Source: a virus
Strand: one strand, 5' to 3'
Length of the DNA stretch: 39,135 bases
Virus record (IMG/VR): IMGVR_UViG_3300046718_000591
Location: 1-39,135 of that record
Of this stretch, positions 2,873 through 9,622 are shown in pieces. The notes beneath the pieces were generated by a model. It ran no database searches and was not told the DNA's origin. It worked only from the letters and a program-made list of their open reading frames with translations. The first letter of the stretch is position 1. The number at the start of each line of letters is the position of its first letter. Both the position numbers and the translations under genes were made by a program.

Positions 2873-4125
2873 TTGCTACCTCCCAGGCAGTCGATCAGCA
2901 CTGCCGAGAGCAGGCTGGTGTCCATGTCGCCCGGCTTGTAATCCGGGTTGATCTTCTTCATTGCGGCTTCCAGCGTTGCTTCCGCCTCGGCTTTGTTGAT
3001 CAGGCCCTGGGTCTGGGACAGCCGGGCCAGGGCGGCTCGGACGCCGGCGGCGTTCGGCGGGTCGTCGGGGTGGTACTTGTATGGCAGCGCCCACGCGTTC
3101 TGCGTGTCCGGGTCGCCGTTCTTCTTCCCGGCGCAGATGCCCCGGTAGAACGCTTCGGGGTCGTCGGCGACGGTGCCGTTGTGCCAGGCCTTCGACGCGT
3201 CCCAGGCCGTGTTGTCGACCTCGGCGTCGGTCGCGGCGCGCAGCACCGGCCCGGCAGCTGCGGCGGTCTTCTCCGCGGGCGCGGACTTGGCCATGCCGGG
3301 CATCGGCGGGACCGGCTTGATCTGCTTGCCGTCCGCGTCGAAGTGCGAGTGGTCCGTGTCGCCCTCGGCGGTGGAATCGTCGTCGCCATCGCCGTCCGGG
3401 TCGTACCGCGGTTTCCCGTCGGCGCCCATCATCCAGCCGTCGCCCATCTGCTCGTCACCCTCGGAGCCGGGTCTGTCGGCGTTGAGGGTGTTGAACACGG
3501 ACATGTCCCAGGTGGCGCGGACGTCGCCGTCTTCGCCGCGGATCCGGTCGGCCAGGCCGTCAGCGACCGCCTCCTGGTCCTTGTACCAGGTGGTGGCCTG
3601 CATCTTCGCCCGCCAGTACGCGGCCGGTTTCCCGGTGCGCGCGGCGTAGATCCCGGCGATGTTGTCCGATGCGGCGTCGAGCTGGTCGGCGAGGCCGCGC
3701 ATGTCGGCGGCGTTGCCGATACCGGCCGCGAACCCGTCGTGGATCATCATCGTGGAGAACGGGGCCATCTCCAGCCGCCCCGGGGATGCGGCCTGGGCGA
3801 TGAACGAGGCCGCGGACGCCGCCAGACCGTCGACGGTGATGGCAACGGTGCCCTTGCGTGACTTCAGGCTGTTGTAGATCGCTATCGCATCGAAGACGTC
3901 GCCGCCGGGCGAGGAGATGTGAACGTCGAGGTCGCCGTTGATACCGGACAGCTCGGCAAGGAACTCCCCTGCCGACACCCCCCACATGCCGATCTCGTCG
4001 TAGATCGATACGAGTGTGGGTTCTCCGGTGTCGGCCTTGTTGGTGATGGTCCACCACCTGGGCAGTGTCGACTGCAGGTTCTGTAGCCGCCGTGTCGAGC
4101 GCATGGGCCTGGCTCCGTGCATCAT
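2869..4125 (-). CDS. ClpP-type (S14) head maturation protease
   Basis: A 418-aa prohead protease. Residues ~35-195 form a ClpP-like serine protease domain: HISSPGGDVFDA (69-80), the catalytic serine in GLAASAAS (S104), histidine in MMIHDG (H129), and an acidic candidate in WYKDQEA (D182). Residues ~240-418 are an Ala/Pro/Asp-rich extension ending in an AWALPYKYHP...NAAGVRAALARL segment, seen on actinophage head proteases and possibly a scaffold-like part. It overlaps portal by ATGA. Two adjacent ATGs (4125 and 4122) follow GGGAGGAA; the second has the better spacing. It would trim the capsid N-terminus during head assembly. Confidence 0.92.
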   Translation of the reverse strand: MMHGARPMRSTRRLQNLQSTLPRWWTITNKADTGEPTLVSIYDEIGMWGVSAGEFLAELSGINGDLDVHISSPGGDVFDAIAIYNSLKSRKGTVAITVDGLAASAASFIAQAASPGRLEMAPFSTMMIHDGFAAGIGNAADMRGLADQLDAASDNIAGIYAARTGKPAAYWRAKMQATTWYKDQEAVADGLADRIRGEDGDVRATWDMSVFNTLNADRPGSEGDEQMGDGWMMGADGKPRYDPDGDGDDDSTAEGDTDHSHFDADGKQIKPVPPMPGMAKSAPAEKTAAAAGPVLRAATDAEVDNTAWDASKAWHNGTVADDPEAFYRGICAGKKNGDPDTQNAWALPYKYHPDDPPNAAGVRAALARLSQTQGLINKAEAEATLEAAMKKINPDYKPGDMDTSLLSAVLIDCLGGSK

Positions 4126-6350
4126 TTCCTCCCTGCTAGCTGAATCGGTACGTAGCCGTCGGAGAGGACGCGGTGTACCAGGCCTGTGAGCGTGGCGGCG
4201 TCTGCACGGTCGTTCTGCGCGTGCATTCGGTCCTGCGTTCCGGTGGCGGCCCAGTCGGCGAAGACGGTGCCGCGGCAGCGGTCGCCGCCGGCGCAGTCGA
4301 TGTAGCCGCCGTTGGGGTAGAGGGCGGCGACGGCGGTGACGATGCCGGGGTCGGTGGTGTTGCCGATGTACTCGCCGTCGACGGCGCGGCAGTTAGAACA
4401 AGTGTTCTTGTCGTTCACCTCGCTGGCGTAGAGGTCCGCGGTCAGCCCGGAGTCGAGGATGGTGGCGATACGCGCGGCGTTCTGCGCCGACGACAGCGCC
4501 CCGCCCAGACGGCTGACGAGCGTGGCATCGGACAGATCGGCCAGGAACCCTTCGACGTCGTCGGCGACGGCGACCCCATCGATGTTGTCGCCCGCGCCGG
4601 CCCGCCGGAACGCCTCGGCGCCCGCTGCCAGCGCCAGCCCCATGGCCAGCAGTGCCGCGACGACGGCGGCGGCAGCGGCCAGGCCGTCACGGTCGGGGGT
4701 TTTCGGCTGGACGCCGGGCACGCCCTGGGCCCTGGCTTCCCGGGATGCCTGCGAGGCGGCTTTCGCGGCCATCGCGGCCATCGCGGCCAGGATCAGTGCG
4801 GCGCCGTCGGTGGAGTCGACGTCCAGGGATGTGAGGTCCTCGGTGTTCCCGGCGTCGACGAGTGCCTGGATCTGGTCCAGCAGCTGCTGCCGCTGCGCGG
4901 GGAGGATCTGCGCGAGGTAGGCGGCGACCAGGGCCGCGACTGCGGCCTTCCACTGGGCGTCGACCTGGTCGAGGTCATGGTCCGGGGCGGTCTTGGCCGC
5001 GGCGCGGGCCCGGGTCATGGTGATGGTTTCGCGGCGCCGGTTCTGGGCTTCGGCTTCGGCGTTGGGGACGCCGGGCAGCGCCGCGGGCCCGGTCGGCAGC
5101 GCCGGCGGCGGCGGGGTGGCGGGCTCGGCGAAATCCATGTCCGGCAGCCCGACGGTCTCCAGCACGTCGTGCGGGTCGTATCCGGCCGCGACGAGCGCGG
5201 CGGCGGACTGGGACTTGGACAGCAGCTCCGCAGCGGCGCCCTCGGCGTTGGTCTTGGACGGGTCGTCGTAGTCGAACTCCACCGTCTTGTCCGCGCCGCC
5301 GAACAGCGGCAGCAGCTTGGAGTTGAGGGTGTCGCGGCGCCGGTTGAGACGGGGCAGCATCTGCCAGTCGACGAAGGTTTCCTCGGCGGTCTGGGCGTTG
5401 GCGCGGTTGACGTCGTCGCTGCTGCCCATCATGGCCTTGTGGATGCGCCAGGCCTCGCGCAGCTCGTCGCGGTTGGCCAGCCGCAGCTGCCCGTACTCCA
5501 TGTCCTTGTTGGTGTGGGCGTTCGGCTCCCATGTCATGCCGTCTTCCAGGACGCCGACCTGGCCGGCGCGGGCGACGCCGCGGTGGGACTCGCGCCACCG
5601 GTTGATGAGCTCGTCGAACTGCGGCTCGGTGAGGCGGTTGGGGACGGTGATGACGCCGCCGGGGTCGGCGCCGTTGAGGAACAGGTTCCGCTGGTATTCG
5701 GTGGCGTATCGCTGCTGCTGGATGTTCGGCAGGATCGAGGCGACGGGTCCGGCGCCGCGGTAGGGGTCCAGGGGGCTGGGCCGTTTCTCCAGGATGACTT
5801 CGGAGTCTTTCAGCGGTACCTGTGTGCCGTCGGGGCCGGTGTAGATCCAGCCGACGAGGAACCGGTCTGGGTCGGGGACGGGTTCCATGCGGTCGGGGCG
5901 GACGTACCACATGGAGGTGGGGAATCCGGCTTCGGTGTCCAGGATCCAGAATGTTTCGCCGGTGAGTTCTTCGTGCTGGTTGGAGCCTTCTCTGAACTCG
6001 AAGCCGCTATGCCACGAATTGGGGTTGTTCCATAGTTGGATGGCTGCGTGTTGGACGACTTGGGTGCGCTGGTCGGATCCTTTGTCGCCGGTGGTGTAGC
6101 GGACGCGGCCGTCTTGTGGGGGTTTCTTGTACAGCTTCCAGGGGGGTGTGGCGGCGGATTCGGCGAGGAGGCTGACGATGCCGTAGATGGTGCCGGACAT
6201 GCCGTATTGGCGCATGGATGTTTCGGCGTCTTGGCGTCCGTTGCCGAGGTTGAAGGAGAGTCCGCGGCGTGCTGCGGATATGCCGTCGCCGAGGGGGATG
6301 GGGGGTTTGCCTGCGTTGCGGGGGCGGAGCGCTTTCCCGATGAGGCTCAC
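4122..6350 (-). CDS. Portal protein fused to MuF-like minor head domain
   Basis: A 742-aa protein from a GTG at 6350 (VSLIGKALRPRNAG) that overlaps the stop of the small membrane protein as GTGA. A longer upstream frame exists but is only the shadow of that gene. Residues ~1-430 are an HK97-type portal: MRQYGMSGTIYGIVSLLAES, GETFWILDTEAGFPTSMWYV, GVITVPNRLTEPQFDELINR, NRANAQTAEETFVDWQMLPR. This is the dodecameric gate for DNA packaging and ejection. After a Pro/Ala linker (~450-500) a long Ala-rich helical region leads to a MuF/SPP1 gp7-type ending with NTCSNCRAVDGEY (649-661) and DCAGGDRCRG (~686-693), the usual Cys-rich metal site. Portal and minor head protein are usually separate genes, so the fusion is notable. 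Confidence 0.93.
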   Translation of the reverse strand: MSLIGKALRPRNAGKPPIPLGDGISAARRGLSFNLGNGRQDAETSMRQYGMSGTIYGIVSLLAESAATPPWKLYKKPPQDGRVRYTTGDKGSDQRTQVVQHAAIQLWNNPNSWHSGFEFREGSNQHEELTGETFWILDTEAGFPTSMWYVRPDRMEPVPDPDRFLVGWIYTGPDGTQVPLKDSEVILEKRPSPLDPYRGAGPVASILPNIQQQRYATEYQRNLFLNGADPGGVITVPNRLTEPQFDELINRWRESHRGVARAGQVGVLEDGMTWEPNAHTNKDMEYGQLRLANRDELREAWRIHKAMMGSSDDVNRANAQTAEETFVDWQMLPRLNRRRDTLNSKLLPLFGGADKTVEFDYDDPSKTNAEGAAAELLSKSQSAAALVAAGYDPHDVLETVGLPDMDFAEPATPPPPALPTGPAALPGVPNAEAEAQNRRRETITMTRARAAAKTAPDHDLDQVDAQWKAAVAALVAAYLAQILPAQRQQLLDQIQALVDAGNTEDLTSLDVDSTDGAALILAAMAAMAAKAASQASREARAQGVPGVQPKTPDRDGLAAAAAVVAALLAMGLALAAGAEAFRRAGAGDNIDGVAVADDVEGFLADLSDATLVSRLGGALSSAQNAARIATILDSGLTADLYASEVNDKNTCSNCRAVDGEYIGNTTDPGIVTAVAALYPNGGYIDCAGGDRCRGTVFADWAATGTQDRMHAQNDRADAATLTGLVHRVLSDGYVPIQLAGRK

Positions 6351-6619
6351 TGGTCGCGCTGCCAGTCGAAGATGAGGATGCTGAGGCCGATGGCGGCGTA
6401 ACCGGCTCCGTGGCCGTAGGTGCTCCAGGCGGCGGTGTCGAGGAAGGCGAGTGCGCTGATGGTCAGCGCGGGGCTCCATTCGCGGTGCCGCGCCGCGCTG
6501 ACCATCGCTGTGCCCTTGCGTGCCGCCGCTGCGAGGGCCGCGCGCATCCGGTCCCGACGCCGCGTGCGGGTCCGGGTGTGCGCGTCTTGGGGGATGGTAC
6601 CGGCGGTGATGGCTGCCAT
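6347..6619 (-). CDS. Small membrane protein upstream of portal
   Basis: A 90-aa protein. Residues 1-45 are Arg/Ala-rich (DAHTRTRTRRRDRMRAALAA), followed by one or two hydrophobic segments (ALTISALAFLDTAAWSTYGH and GYAAIGLSILIFDW). The stop overlaps the portal GTG, so it is translated just before portal. The positively charged N-terminus and C-terminal membrane hairpin suggest an inner-membrane protein. No family is recognised and the role in the late operon is unknown. Confidence 0.6.
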   Translation of the reverse strand: MAAITAGTIPQDAHTRTRTRRRDRMRAALAAAARKGTAMVSAARHREWSPALTISALAFLDTAAWSTYGHGAGYAAIGLSILIFDWQRDQ

Positions 6620-6805
6620 GGGTCGCCTCCAGCCCGCCGGTGTCTCGCTACGTCAACAGTTCGGTGTCCGAAAGGTTGAGTAGGCGAATGACTTGGACAC
6701 CAAGGTACCGCAGGTAGGGGCTTTGTAGGTAGCGCCATGTTCACTAGTTGCGTTAGGCCATGATGTATGAACAAACGCACGGTACTGATATTGTTATTTG
6801 CACGT
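6620..6805. other. Divergent intergenic region with operator-like palindromes
   Basis: No gene is seen between the minus-strand head genes and the plus-strand insert. It holds CTTGGACACCAAG (6692-6704, perfect 5-bp arms around ACA) and a wider inverted pair GGTGTCC (6663-6669) / GGACACC (6695-6701). The stretch 6735-6800 is clearly more AT-rich than its surroundings (ATGATGTATGAACAAAC, GATATTGTTATTTG) and must hold the promoter for the plus-strand leader, but no clean -35/-10 pair can be assigned. The promoter for the 90-aa and portal genes could also lie here. Confidence 0.5.
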
Positions 6806-6966
6806 GGCTCGGCACGGCGTGGCTAGGCGTGGCGCGGCGTGGCTCGGCTCGGCGAGGCGAGGTCCCTGACGGGAGGTTCCCGCGCAGGCAACTGCGCGGG
6901 TTCCCCTCGGCAGGGCTCGGCAGGGCTCGGCCGGGCATGGCTGGGCATGGCAAGGCGAGGCAGGGG
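6806..6966 (+). promoter_or_regulatory. GGCNN pentamer double array: 11 + hairpin + 11, RNA leader
   Basis: GGC occurs at 6806, 6811, 6816, 6821, 6826, 6831, 6836, 6841, 6846, 6851 and 6856: eleven triplets, each followed by two variable bases. The next unit is broken (GGT at 6861). After 48 nt containing a strong hairpin, GGC resumes at 6909 and then every 5 nt to 6959: again exactly eleven, broken by GGG at 6964. The two spacer bases vary widely while GGC is invariant, so the period is selected rather than copied. The arrays end about 30 nt before the ATG at 6995 and would sit in its 5' leader RNA. Five-base spacing excludes coding. The pattern recalls the (G/U)AG triplets spaced by 2-3 nt that the 11-subunit TRAP ring binds, so an RNA-binding oligomer is the favoured reading (inference). 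Confidence 0.85.
6879..6900 (+). promoter_or_regulatory. 9-bp hairpin with GCAA tetraloop between the arrays
   Basis: CCCGCGCAG (6879-6887) pairs perfectly with CTGCGCGGG (6892-6900) around a GNRA-type GCAA loop. Shorter alternative pairings flank it: TCCC/GGGA at 6863-6874 and GAGG/CCTC at 6873-6876 / 6905-6908. It divides the two GGCNN arrays symmetrically and would be very stable in RNA. It could act as an attenuator, a spacer holding two bound rings apart, or a nuclease stop. Confidence 0.75.
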
Positions 6967-6994
6967 TTCCACCACCACAGAAACGGATCAACAC

Positions 6995-7579
6995 ATGGAC
7001 TTGCAACTCAACATCACCGGAACCGCACCACTCCTCATGCACAACGCACGCCTGTCCAACCCCCTCGACCCCATAGCCCGCGCCATGAAGAAAGTCAGCG
7101 CCAAACGCAGCAAAGCAGAAGACGACTACCAGGAAATCGCACACCTGGAGTTCCTCGGCGGCCTGTACTCCGACCCCGACGTCGGCCCCTACCTGCCGGG
7201 CGACAACATGTTCCGCGCACTCATAGACGCAGGCCGCAAACGCAAACTCGGCATCAAAGTCACATCCGGCGTCATCGTCACCTCAGACATCAACCCGATC
7301 GCCTACAAGGGATCGCGCGACCCAGAGGAACTGTGGAACGAAGGCGGCTTCATCTTCCAAGCGTCAGCGAAGGTCGGACAGCAGCGCATCATCCGCACAC
7401 GGCCCCGCTTCACAACATGGGCCACCTCGGCAACGCTCTACCTCGACACCGAAGTCCTCGACCTCGACGACCTCACCCAGCTCGTCGACATCGCCGGACG
7501 GCTCATCGGTCTGGGTGACTGGCGGCCGCGCTTCGGCCGGTTCGAGGCGACCCTGACCGTCACCAAGGCCGTGTCGTGA
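6995..7579 (+). CDS. RAMP/Cas7-like phage protein behind the GGCNN leader
   Basis: A 194-aa protein starting MDLQLNITGTAPLLMHN; the start follows an ACGGA motif about 8 nt upstream. The open frame extends 5' into the arrays, but that part is a repeat artefact. Three marks recall RAMP (Cas7/Csm3-type) RNA-binding proteins: an opening beta strand with PLLMHN (12-17), YLPGDNMFRAL (66-76) in the place of the RAMP 'PGSSLRGALR' segment, and a Gly/Arg-rich ending GLGDWRPRFGRF (172-183) like the RAMP glycine loop. No Cas neighbours or CRISPR array are visible, so it would be a stand-alone member. The fold is inferred from motifs only. It is coupled to the next gene by GTGA. The obvious hypothesis is that it binds its own GGCNN leader RNA or similar targets. 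Confidence 0.8.
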   Translation: MDLQLNITGTAPLLMHNARLSNPLDPIARAMKKVSAKRSKAEDDYQEIAHLEFLGGLYSDPDVGPYLPGDNMFRALIDAGRKRKLGIKVTSGVIVTSDINPIAYKGSRDPEELWNEGGFIFQASAKVGQQRIIRTRPRFTTWATSATLYLDTEVLDLDDLTQLVDIAGRLIGLGDWRPRFGRFEATLTVTKAVS

Positions 7580-8118
7580 GCCCGTTCAAACCGCTCGGCG
7601 ACGAGGCCCGCTGGCGCACCCTCTACGACCTGCTGCGCGCCACGCCCACCGGAACGGTCCTCACCTACCGACAGATGGCCAACGCGCTCGGCCTCGACCC
7701 GGTACGCCACCGCTCGGCGATGGCTAGTGCCATGCGCAAAGCCGCCGAGGAACACGAGGAGCAGGACAAGCGCGCCATTGAAGTCGTCCGCGATGAGGGG
7801 TACAGGGTGGTGGACGTTGACGGCCACCTGCGCCTTGCGCACGTTCACGGGCGTCGGGCCGGGGCGCAGTTGGAGATGGCGTATTCGAAGGTCACCAACG
7901 TGGACTTGTCCGACGTTGATCCGGAGGTCCGCAAGGGCTTCGAGGTGGTTGCGCGCGGATTCCTGGAGCAGATGGAGATCAACCGTCGGCTGTCGGCGAG
8001 GCAGCGGCGGACCGAGCGGGCACTGGATGCAGTGATGCAACGTGGCGAACGCACGGAAGAGGAAATCGCGGAGCTGCATGCACGGCTAGAGGCGCTGGAA
8101 TCACGCGCCAAGCAATAG
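7576..8118 (+). CDS. Winged-helix / coiled-coil partner of RAMP-like protein
   Basis: A 180-aa protein starting at a GTG that overlaps the previous stop (GTGA), so the two are made together. Residues ~10-75 look like a winged helix or MGMT-like DNA-binding unit: PTGTVLTYRQMANALGLDP, a basic recognition stretch RHRSAMASAMRKA, then VVRDEGYRVVDVDGHLRLAH as wing. Residues ~115-178 are a long charged coiled coil (FLEQMEINRRLSARQRRTER ... EIAELHARLEALES). Together this suggests a dimeric or oligomeric nucleic-acid-binding factor. No named family is recognised. A two-gene operon behind an unusual leader suggests a regulator or defence-type pair. Confidence 0.8.
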   Translation: MSPFKPLGDEARWRTLYDLLRATPTGTVLTYRQMANALGLDPVRHRSAMASAMRKAAEEHEEQDKRAIEVVRDEGYRVVDVDGHLRLAHVHGRRAGAQLEMAYSKVTNVDLSDVDPEVRKGFEVVARGFLEQMEINRRLSARQRRTERALDAVMQRGERTEEEIAELHARLEALESRAKQ

Positions 8119-8135
8119 CGGAAATACGCGCAATC

Positions 8136-8165
8136 GACTCCACATAATGCTTGTTATGCGGAGTC
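8136..8165. terminator. Bidirectional terminator-like hairpin between convergent genes
   Basis: GACTCC-A-CATAA (8136-8147) pairs with TTATG-C-GGAGTC (8154-8165), one A-C mismatch, loop TGCTTG. It lies 17 nt after the plus-strand stop at 8118 and 26 nt before the terminase stop on the other strand, an ideal spot for a shared terminator. There is no long T-run, as is common in actinobacteria. Confidence 0.6.
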
Positions 8166-8192
8166 CGGCGCGCCGGGGTGGCGCGCCACCCC
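8165..8192. repeat. Two fused perfect palindromes with GGCGCGCC cores
   Basis: CCGGCGCGCCGG (8165-8176) and GGGGTGGCGCGCCACCCC (8175-8192) are both perfectly self-complementary, overlap by two bases, and have identical 8-bp cores 13 bp apart. The second ends on the first base read by the terminase stop codon (TAG, complement of 8192-8194). They could reinforce termination or bind a dimeric protein. Confidence 0.65.
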
Positions 8193-9622
8193 TACCGGCT
8201 GAACGACCGGTACCGCGGCTGCGGGCCCACGAACAACTGGTGCAGCACCTGCGACATGGTGTCCACACGGTCGTCGTGCGCACCGTTCGGGAACGCCGAC
8301 ATCTCCTCGATGAAGTCCCCGATCCACGGGGCGATCGACGCCGCCGGGATCTCGATGTCGCCGGCCTCGATGAACGGGGTGACCGCGTGCACCCGGGCCT
8401 CCTTGGAGTCCTTCGGGGTGACCGCGGTTATCCCGCCGATCTCTCTGCGCAGCTGGGAGATGACCGCCGGGCCGTTGGCCTTGTCCTCGATGAGCTTGCG
8501 GCTGGCCTGAGGCCACTTGGCCGTGGTCTCACGGATCAGTTGGCAGGTGGCGGGGAAGTCGGCGCGGGCCCGTACCTCGTCCAGTAGCCACGCTTTCGAG
8601 CCGGAACGCGCCCACACCTGACCGACGACGTAGTCGCTGATCTTGGTGTCCTTGAATGCCAAATCCCAGCTCTGCACGACCTCGTCGGCGCCGAGGGCAC
8701 GCCAGGAGCCGTCGTCGTGCCGTACCGCACGGGGGGCGGTGTAGAACACCCACCAGCTCCGCTTGATGATGCCGCCCTCGCCCGGGGACGGCCGGCCCTG
8801 GAAAAGAGCTGCGAAGTCGCGGGCTCCGGCATCCTTCCGCCGCCGCTCCCAGCCGGCCGTGGTGCGTCCGCGCGCGGACACCATCCACTGGCCCGGGTCG
8901 CGGCCGAGCAGATCCGTCTCGCCGAGCTCCGGCTTGTGGTCGGCCTGCGCCGGGATGTTGATATGACGCCAGCCCTCAGGATCCTCAATGAGCTGCCAGC
9001 CGATGAAGTCGTCCTCATGCCAGCGAGTCTGTACGGCTACGCACGGAGCGTTCTCGGCAAGGCGAGGTGCGCCGGTGGATCGCCAGAAGTCCTTGACGGT
9101 CTCGCGTTCGATCTCCGATTCGGCTTCCCGCCGTCCCTTTAGCGGGTCGTCGATGACCATCGCGTCAAGGGGGCGGCCGGTGAGTGAGCCGCGGATACCG
9201 ACGGTGACGACGCCGCCGTCGTGGCCTTCCAGCTGCCATTCGTTCGCGGCTTTGCTGTCGGCGGCGAGGACCAGGCCGAGCTCCGGGTTGCCGATGATGT
9301 CGTTGCGGACGGTGCGGCCCCAGCGGCGGGCGAGCGCGTCGGAGTAGGACACGACGCCGATGCGCATGTCAGGGTTGCGTAGCAGCAGCCACAGGACAAA
9401 CCAGCGGGAGACGCGCAGCGACTTACCCTCCTGCGGCGCCATCGACAGCAACAGCCGCGGCCGGGTGCCGTCGGCGGCGTCGACGAGCGCGCCGTCGATG
9501 ATGTCAAGGGCCGGCGTCTGGACAGTGCGGGGTTCCAGAGCGCGGGCCAGGTCGCCAGGGGTCGAGTAGTTCGCGGCACCGCCGGACAGTCGTTGCTCCA
9601 GGAAGTCGAGCTCGTCGAGCAT
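8192..9622 (-). CDS. terL: Terminase large subunit
   Basis: A 476-aa packaging motor and nuclease. ATPase part: Walker A APQEGKS (62-68), Walker B AMVIDDP (154-160), coupling motif QTRWHEDD (198-205). RNase H-like nuclease part: SWDLAFKD (318-325) with the first metal-binding Asp, IEDKANG (378-384), and HDDRVD (449-454) with the last acidic pair. The length is ordinary for the family. It follows terminase small subunit with an 8-nt gap on the same strand. It would cut concatemers and drive DNA through the portal. Unusually, a plus-strand two-gene insert separates it from portal, so head genes probably need their own promoter or read through from here. Confidence 0.96.
   Translation of the reverse strand: MLDELDFLEQRLSGGAANYSTPGDLARALEPRTVQTPALDIIDGALVDAADGTRPRLLLSMAPQEGKSLRVSRWFVLWLLLRNPDMRIGVVSYSDALARRWGRTVRNDIIGNPELGLVLAADSKAANEWQLEGHDGGVVTVGIRGSLTGRPLDAMVIDDPLKGRREAESEIERETVKDFWRSTGAPRLAENAPCVAVQTRWHEDDFIGWQLIEDPEGWRHINIPAQADHKPELGETDLLGRDPGQWMVSARGRTTAGWERRRKDAGARDFAALFQGRPSPGEGGIIKRSWWVFYTAPRAVRHDDGSWRALGADEVVQSWDLAFKDTKISDYVVGQVWARSGSKAWLLDEVRARADFPATCQLIRETTAKWPQASRKLIEDKANGPAVISQLRREIGGITAVTPKDSKEARVHAVTPFIEAGDIEIPAASIAPWIGDFIEEMSAFPNGAHDDRVDTMSQVLHQLFVGPQPRYRSFSR

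Follow-up and report, generated by a model that had tools for sequence, protein, structure and literature searches.

A plus-strand insertion between the portal and terminase genes

The window (the whole stretch of DNA analyzed, 39,135 bases from a viral record of IMG/VR) carries a plus-strand insertion of approximately 1.3-1.4 kb, consisting of a leader and two genes, between two minus-strand genes encoding the portal and the terminase (Table 1). A first-pass annotation had placed this gene pair on the strand opposite to its neighbours and had described a GTGA coupling of its 194-aa and 180-aa products; both points are borne out, the first by the minus-strand orientation of the two flanking genes and the second by the ORF coordinates, in which vipr opens with ATG at 6995 and stops at 7577-7579, vap opens with GTG at 7576, and the overlap reads GTGA. 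The pair had also been called bounded by palindromes, which holds downstream, where two inverted repeats (8136-8165 and 8175-8192) lie at the convergent vap and terminase ends, and not upstream, where the repeat at 6458-6506 falls inside the portal-side ORFs and not at the edge of the insertion. The downstream repeats are a possible bidirectional stop; no U-run terminator was found at the vap/terminase junction (0 terminator-like sites), and a search for a sigma-70-like promoter found none. The further claim that no cas genes or CRISPR array are visible was checked in part: no CRISPR-like repeat occurs in 6300-8700, and PADLOC was applied to these two proteins only.

Table 1. Features of the insertion and of the genes that flank it, numbered from the first base of the window
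Feature	Position	Strand	Basis
Portal	4122-6479	-	Pfam Phage_portal, E 2.3e-51
vrRNA guide tract 1, 12 perfect YNNGG units	6803-6862	+	Run search and shuffle control; decoded from sequence
Linker/tail after tract 1, two hairpins	6863-6905	+	Folding
vrRNA guide tract 2, 12 perfect YNNGG units	6906-6965	+	Run search and shuffle control
Tail-like GTTCCACCACC sequence forming the vipr 5' UTR, no tRNA-like element	6966-6994	+	Sequence; comparison with relatives
vipr, RAMP/Cas7-fold protein (modelled), 194 aa	6995-7579	+	phrog_4652, E 1.6e-57; 36pp_D, E 3.4e-34; model
vap (Vap1 homologue by profile), winged helix (modelled) and long coiled coil, 180 aa	7576-8118	+	Profile homology; model
Two inverted repeats, convergent vap/terminase ends	8136-8192		Fold of 8119-8191, -36.2 kcal/mol
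Terminase	8192-9622	-	Terminase_6C, E 1.8e-18

On the portal side, a minus-strand ORF of 90 aa without a Pfam match (6347-6619) lies between the portal and the leader; it overlaps the portal start and contains the 17-bp inverted repeat at 6458-6506. The portal ORF itself is 785 aa long, with a Pfam portal match over residues 97-410 only, so that a second head protein may be fused to it as the C-terminal half. The closest annotated terminases, at about 50% identity, belong to phages of Arthrobacter, Brevibacterium and others, and because of these relatives an actinobacterial host is likely for the virus of the window.

The vipr product is a predicted RAMP related to SUSP1 Vipr

The motifs PLLMHN, YLPGDNMFRAL and GLGDWRPRFGRF, from which an RNA-binding protein of the RAMP type had been proposed, are all present in the 194-aa protein. 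It matched PHROG 4652, a family annotated as of unknown function, and when solved sequences were searched with phmmer the sole match was 36pp_D, 'SUSP1 Vipr protein', over residues 3-186. In an alignment of 36 rows the most conserved part of the family is the GxGDWRPRFG block, and R136, P137, F139, W142, G168, G172, G174, D175, W176, R177, P178, R179 and G181 are invariant.

A structural model built from this alignment (pLDDT 93.6, pTM 0.86) produced 77 Foldseek matches in the PDB at E 0.001 or better, of which the best 50 were all CRISPR effector chains, mostly of the Csm3/Cas7 type; 36pp was absent among the matches listed from this fold library, which extends to April 2026. Superposition on the Csm chain 6xn3_F gave a VIA Z of 11.3 over 157 residues at 3.6 A. 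The structural comparison with Cas7/Csm3 that had been proposed as a check therefore returned a RAMP fold, and on the strength of the model the 194-aa protein is a RAMP. A Csm3-like fold could also be that of a solitary Cas7/Csm3 which the phage took over from a CRISPR-Cas system and which serves as an anti-CRISPR decoy or is a CRISPR remnant, an origin that we consider very improbable: the nearest solved relative by sequence is SUSP1 Vipr, no Cas protein was matched among solved sequences at E up to 10, Pfam, NCBIfam and PADLOC gave no match, and the protein is accompanied by guide-like arrays of its own within a vipr-vap operon that is conserved.

Relatives of Vipr were found by tblastn in 129 of 50,697 phage records. 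Homologues occur in 4 of 396 Actinomycetota genomes, and in the family of Mycobacterium sp. E1747 they are confined to one genome of 201, E1747 itself. The nearest relative, locus L002, encodes a Vipr 80% identical to that of the window and pairs with it in a tree (support 100/99); the two fall among the vap1-bearing rows, and the deep forks of the tree are left open.

The partner is Vap1-like by profile homology

In each of the 16 closest loci from IMG/VR (L002-L017), tblastn placed the partner gene directly 3' of vipr, at E 1.5e-15 or better. In its model a winged-helix N-terminus is followed by a long coiled coil, in agreement with the description first given of it; the winged-helix assignment rests on the secondary structure of the model, on weak matches to MGMT DNA-binding domains and on weak Foldseek matches, and no PDB match reached E 0.001 or better.

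A profile was built from 16 actinobacterial-type partners, that of the window included. Among 4001 ORFs it found the gene after vipr (146 aa) in the SUSP1-like locus L034, which we take to be SUSP1, at E 4e-9, with an hhalign probability of 95.4%; it likewise found the gene after vipr in the Pseudomonas phages Medea1 and LESphi2, with E values of 2e-7 and 6e-6 for the two phages. Direct BLASTP of the partner against SUSP1 Vap1 was not significant, the profile alone being so. Because the profile recovers the gene after vipr in these three loci, the 180-aa partner is classed by homology as Vap1-like. At E 0.01, 4 of the 50,697 phage records contained a member of its family.

Two tracts of YNNGG units precede vipr

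Viral Interference Programmable Repeat (VIPR) is presented in the main text of a 2026 preprint as CRISPR-related, RNA-guided DNA recognition with a gapped code (PMC13142463). As described there, the RAMP Vipr and a vap gene are accompanied by vrRNAs built of 9-16 YNNGG units, in which the NN dinucleotides pair with DNA and one base is skipped between them.

The repetitive leader that the first-pass annotation had invoked is real; it occupies 6803-6965, outside the segment which that annotation covered, and consists of two runs of 12 YNNGG units. No other run of at least five units exists on either strand of the window, and none of 200 order-2 Markov shuffles went beyond 5 units, their longest runs being of 3 units in 105, 4 units in 87 and 5 units in 8, which excludes chance as the source of two 12-unit tracts. 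The NN dinucleotides read GT TC AC GT TA GT GC GT TC TC GA GA in tract 1 and TC AG TC AG TC CG AT TG AT AA GA AG in tract 2. If the skipped base is set at the codon wobble, both tracts yield open peptides, V-S-T-V-Y-V-A-V-S-S-[DE]-[DE] for tract 1 and, on its reverse strand, L-S-[FL]-[IM]-[HQ]-[IM]-R-[DE]-L-[DE]-L-[DE] for tract 2; both are decodings that imply no target. Tracts often have GA, AG or AA as their final two NN, and these are the only positions at which one tract 1 match in the target searches described below disagrees; the final two units may therefore belong to a tail and not to the guide.

Between the tracts lie a small hairpin (6863-6874) and a strong 9-bp hairpin with a GCAA loop (6879-6900); the region 6860-6910 folds with a z of -3.47. 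The strong hairpin after tract 1 is a possible structured 3' tail; tract 2 enters the vipr start codon without one, an arrangement of the last tract that recurs in several relatives. Because tract 2 runs directly into the start codon, leader-based control of vipr is possible.

To place the tracts in context, 67 vipr loci were surveyed, of which 54 remained after removal of near-identical vipr. Runs of at least 6 YNNGG units occur near vipr and on its strand in 37 of these 54 loci, 39%-GC phages included, as against 0 of 54 on the opposite strand and a single run in 281,642 bases elsewhere; together with the constant position of the partner in the 16 closest loci, this answers the question, raised with the original description, of whether partner and leader accompany the protein. 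Among the 17 run-less loci, at least 10 (L002, L005, L007-L011, L014, L015 and L077) carry tracts with changes in individual GGY units. Between close relatives the NN positions are hypervariable and GGY is kept. The arrays of L003, L005, L009 and L010 keep the 5-base period in many units and show single changes in GGC (such as GTC, CGC and GAC), which may reflect decay or a wider consensus. The place of the array varies, being downstream of vap in L010, L011, L013 and L075 and between vipr and vap in L076; the strand is constant.

These comparisons bear on two other accounts of the leader. Tract 2 has a short internal repeat, as might a functionless GC-rich microsatellite or replication-slippage product that happens to lie beside an unrelated RNA-binding pair, but the strand-specific presence of the motif near vipr, in phages of 39% GC as well, renders this account extremely improbable. 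Alternatively, Vipr could be an RNA-binding autoregulator: by attaching to the leader in the 5' UTR of its gene it would control vipr translation, with the tracts as a platform and not as guides. The meeting of the last tract with the vipr start codon, without tail structure, in the window and several relatives speaks for such a role; a mere platform, however, would not need NN to be hypervariable while GGY is kept, and in some loci the array follows vap or separates it from vipr, so that we regard autoregulation in place of guidance as unlikely. The autoregulator and guide roles may coexist.

A VIPR locus and its proposed mode of action

Protein family, fold, partner homology and guide tracts with their conservation were all observed in this analysis. 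The RAMP is of the Vipr family, the tracts of 12 units lie within the 9-16 range, and vap adjoins vipr. Because a Vipr match, a Vap1 homologue and two YNNGG tracts, the vrRNA signature, coincide, we assign the locus to VIPR, and consider it highly probable that it is a type II-like system (by its Vap1), present as a moron in an actinophage-like virus, whose guides are loaded by Vipr to repress rivals. The original proposal of a phage RNA-binding system with a repetitive leader is thereby supported and made specific: the leader would supply the guide RNAs of a VIPR, which are expected to target DNA. The locus is a previously undescribed one. VIPR is named in no family library used here, the PHROG being of unknown function and Pfam, NCBIfam and PADLOC being without a match; the window adds a compact, two-guide, two-gene, GC-rich example and ties VIPR to phages of Mycobacterium and Gordonia for which laboratory strains serve as hosts.

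For Escherichia phage SUSP1, the main text of the preprint describes as demonstrated the binding of RNA, the one-base skip rule, repression and a boost by Vap1, co-expression of vap1 having raised protection (PMC13142463). Presumably, VIPR lets phages switch off rival phages. For the window locus we infer expression, guide length, target and effect on rivals as follows. The leader would be transcribed into one or two vrRNAs, each with a 12-unit guide tract, and Vipr subunits, judging by fold and homology, would line the tract in the way that Cas7-type RAMPs line crRNA, so that every GGY is withheld from pairing and every NN is presented. This complex would then bind double-stranded DNA in which bases matching successive NN dinucleotides are set apart by single skipped bases, and would block transcription of a rival element, and Vap1 would strengthen repression, probably through DNA binding.

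Searches for targets of the guides

No convincing target was found for the guides of the window. The exact pattern of NN2-10 had 0 matches in IMG/VR for tract 1 and 1 for tract 2, the latter in a 49%-GC stretch (L066) and failing at NN1, NN11 and NN12. The shorter NN1-8 gave 62 matches for tract 1 and 44 for tract 2, in which the remaining 8 guide bases agreed at 0-4 and 0-5 positions, respectively, a chance level. In 396 Actinomycetota genomes tract 2 had 0 matches and tract 1 had 2 at no more than 3 mismatches, in genes of chromosomal type, neither of which was accepted as a target; from base composition, and with 1.2e9 positions assumed for each strand, about 0.25 matches are expected for tract 1, and the control patterns gave 0 (backward), 0 (NN order reversed) and 1 (reversed order, backward). 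One of the two tract 1 matches is perfect over NN1-10, its 3 mismatches being confined to NN11-12, and the translation of its gene, read by eye, is subtilisin-type protease-like; the gene of the other is, by the same reading, sugar-phosphatase-like.

Two guides of Mycobacterium phage LittleE (L013) gave 0 and 1 match in IMG/VR, where we estimate that about 1 chance match is expected for 18 fixed bases; the single match agrees at NN1-10 and not at NN11-12, and lies on a viral contig without a shown link to LittleE. When 76 unique tracts were compared with the fetched loci at skip lengths 0-3, the mean best fractions were 0.771, 0.779, 0.776 and 0.768, which is no excess for skip 1 in what is too little target DNA.

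tRNA-like separators in related loci

In relatives of the window, the tracts are separated by elements of about 40 nt, each with an outer stem of 5-7 bp, a linker of 9-11 nt in which a GG is nearly invariant, and a 5-7-bp stem closed by a TTCGANT-type loop. The two stems together come to 11-12 bp; the acceptor and T-arm of tRNA have 7 and 5 bp. Elements were located by a finder that demands motif and pairing and lets acceptor and T-stem trade lengths, an earlier and stricter version with the T-stem fixed at 5 bp having missed most of them. In 20 actinobacterial-type loci, window included (181,062 bases), it found 26 matches on the plus strand: 22 directly after a YNNGG tract, 2 in arrays outside the distance rule (L075, L076) and 2 stray (L007, L017). 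The minus strand of the same loci gave 0, Markov shuffles 0.6, and both strands of a further 47 vipr loci (373,591 bases) 1; in the whole genome of Gordonia phage Trine exactly 3 were found, all in the array.

Among 20 aligned elements, 96.9% of cells pair as against 67.1% when shuffled, both sides change in 7 of 8 pairs, and covariation is 0.781 as against 0.184. Because the elements of this alignment (A3) were chosen by a finder that demands pairing, these counts are biased in that direction; a test free of the demand showed all five T-stem pairs in 26 of 37 array T-loop motifs, as opposed to 0-2 of 37 when slid. Singly folded separators had z values of -1.83, -0.43, -0.96 and -0.76, not clearly better than shuffles, and for this reason the case for the separators rests on covariation and placement. 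Elements are present in 14 of the 20 actinobacterial-type loci; the independent lineages are fewer, since several of these (L014-L017 and L077) are close M. abscessus prophages.

That the separators are true tRNAs was rejected: ARAGORN called none of them a tRNA, and Rfam tRNA gave no match at the separators of 8 loci even at E up to 10. Their likeness to tRNA suggests that they may be cut by host RNase P and RNase Z. The main text of the preprint has no mention of tRNA, mycobacteria, actinobacteria, Gordonia or RNase (PMC13142463), and a literature search found no other paper on tRNA-like separators in VIPR arrays. The guide arrays so separated are a new array variant.

The finder detected no tRNA-like element in the window, in which a plain hairpin occupies the place that these elements hold in relatives; L002 has both kinds of spacer. 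At 3302-3977 of L002, hairpins and tRNA-like separators alternate between tracts, as if the guides came in hairpin-linked pairs, and a degenerate full-length tRNA follows just after vap (5239-5310; Rfam tRNA 44.7 bits, no anticodon assigned by ARAGORN). In Trine (L076, MH271318.1), gp40 (locus 3591-4394) covers the vrRNA array at 3577-3900 with its three tRNA-like separators; the array lies between vipr (gp41) and a likely real vap homologue, and the gp40 gene call is probably too long.

Taken jointly, we lean towards a model in which the VIPRs of actinobacterial phages form a variant whose minimal tRNA mimics (acceptor stem, D-loop GG and T-arm, no anticodon arm) recruit host RNase P and RNase Z to excise each guide, and in which the window is a derived form, where a plain hairpin joins two guides into one bipartite vrRNA doubling as the vipr 5' UTR, coupling guide supply to vipr expression. 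If this is true, the separators would account for guide release in a system that has no nuclease of its own for the task.

Comparison with known systems

The locus shares with the type II VIPR of SUSP1 a Vipr homologue, a Vap1 homologue (by profile) directly downstream, YNNGG tracts on the same strand and carriage by a phage. According to the main text of the preprint (PMC13142463), the vrRNAs of SUSP1 are divided, one lying upstream and three downstream, whereas in the window both guides are upstream, joined by a hairpin, with the second abutting the vipr start; the units carry GGC where those of SUSP1 carry mostly GGT, and the carrier is an actinophage-like virus. Relatives of the window differ from SUSP1 additionally in their tRNA-like separators. 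VIPR arrays interspersed with hammerheads are also on record there (PMC13142463), and resemble those of the relatives in that tracts are separated by structured RNA able to release guides, although the separators of the relatives are tRNA-like and not ribozymes; Rfam at gathering gave no match in 17 loci, the region of the window included.

With the RAMPs of class 1 CRISPR-Cas systems (Cas7/Csm3) the vipr product has in common the modelled fold, with its VIA Z of 11.3 to Csm3, but no sequence match to Cas proteins; the guides are 5-base periodic, and no CRISPR-like repeat was found around the genes (6300-8700). In engineered polycistronic tRNA-gRNA arrays, guides are placed between tRNA units that are cut by tRNA-processing enzymes. 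The arrays of the relatives, with their putative cutting, would be a natural counterpart of these, phage-borne and built on minimal elements of about 40 nt that dispense with the anticodon arm.
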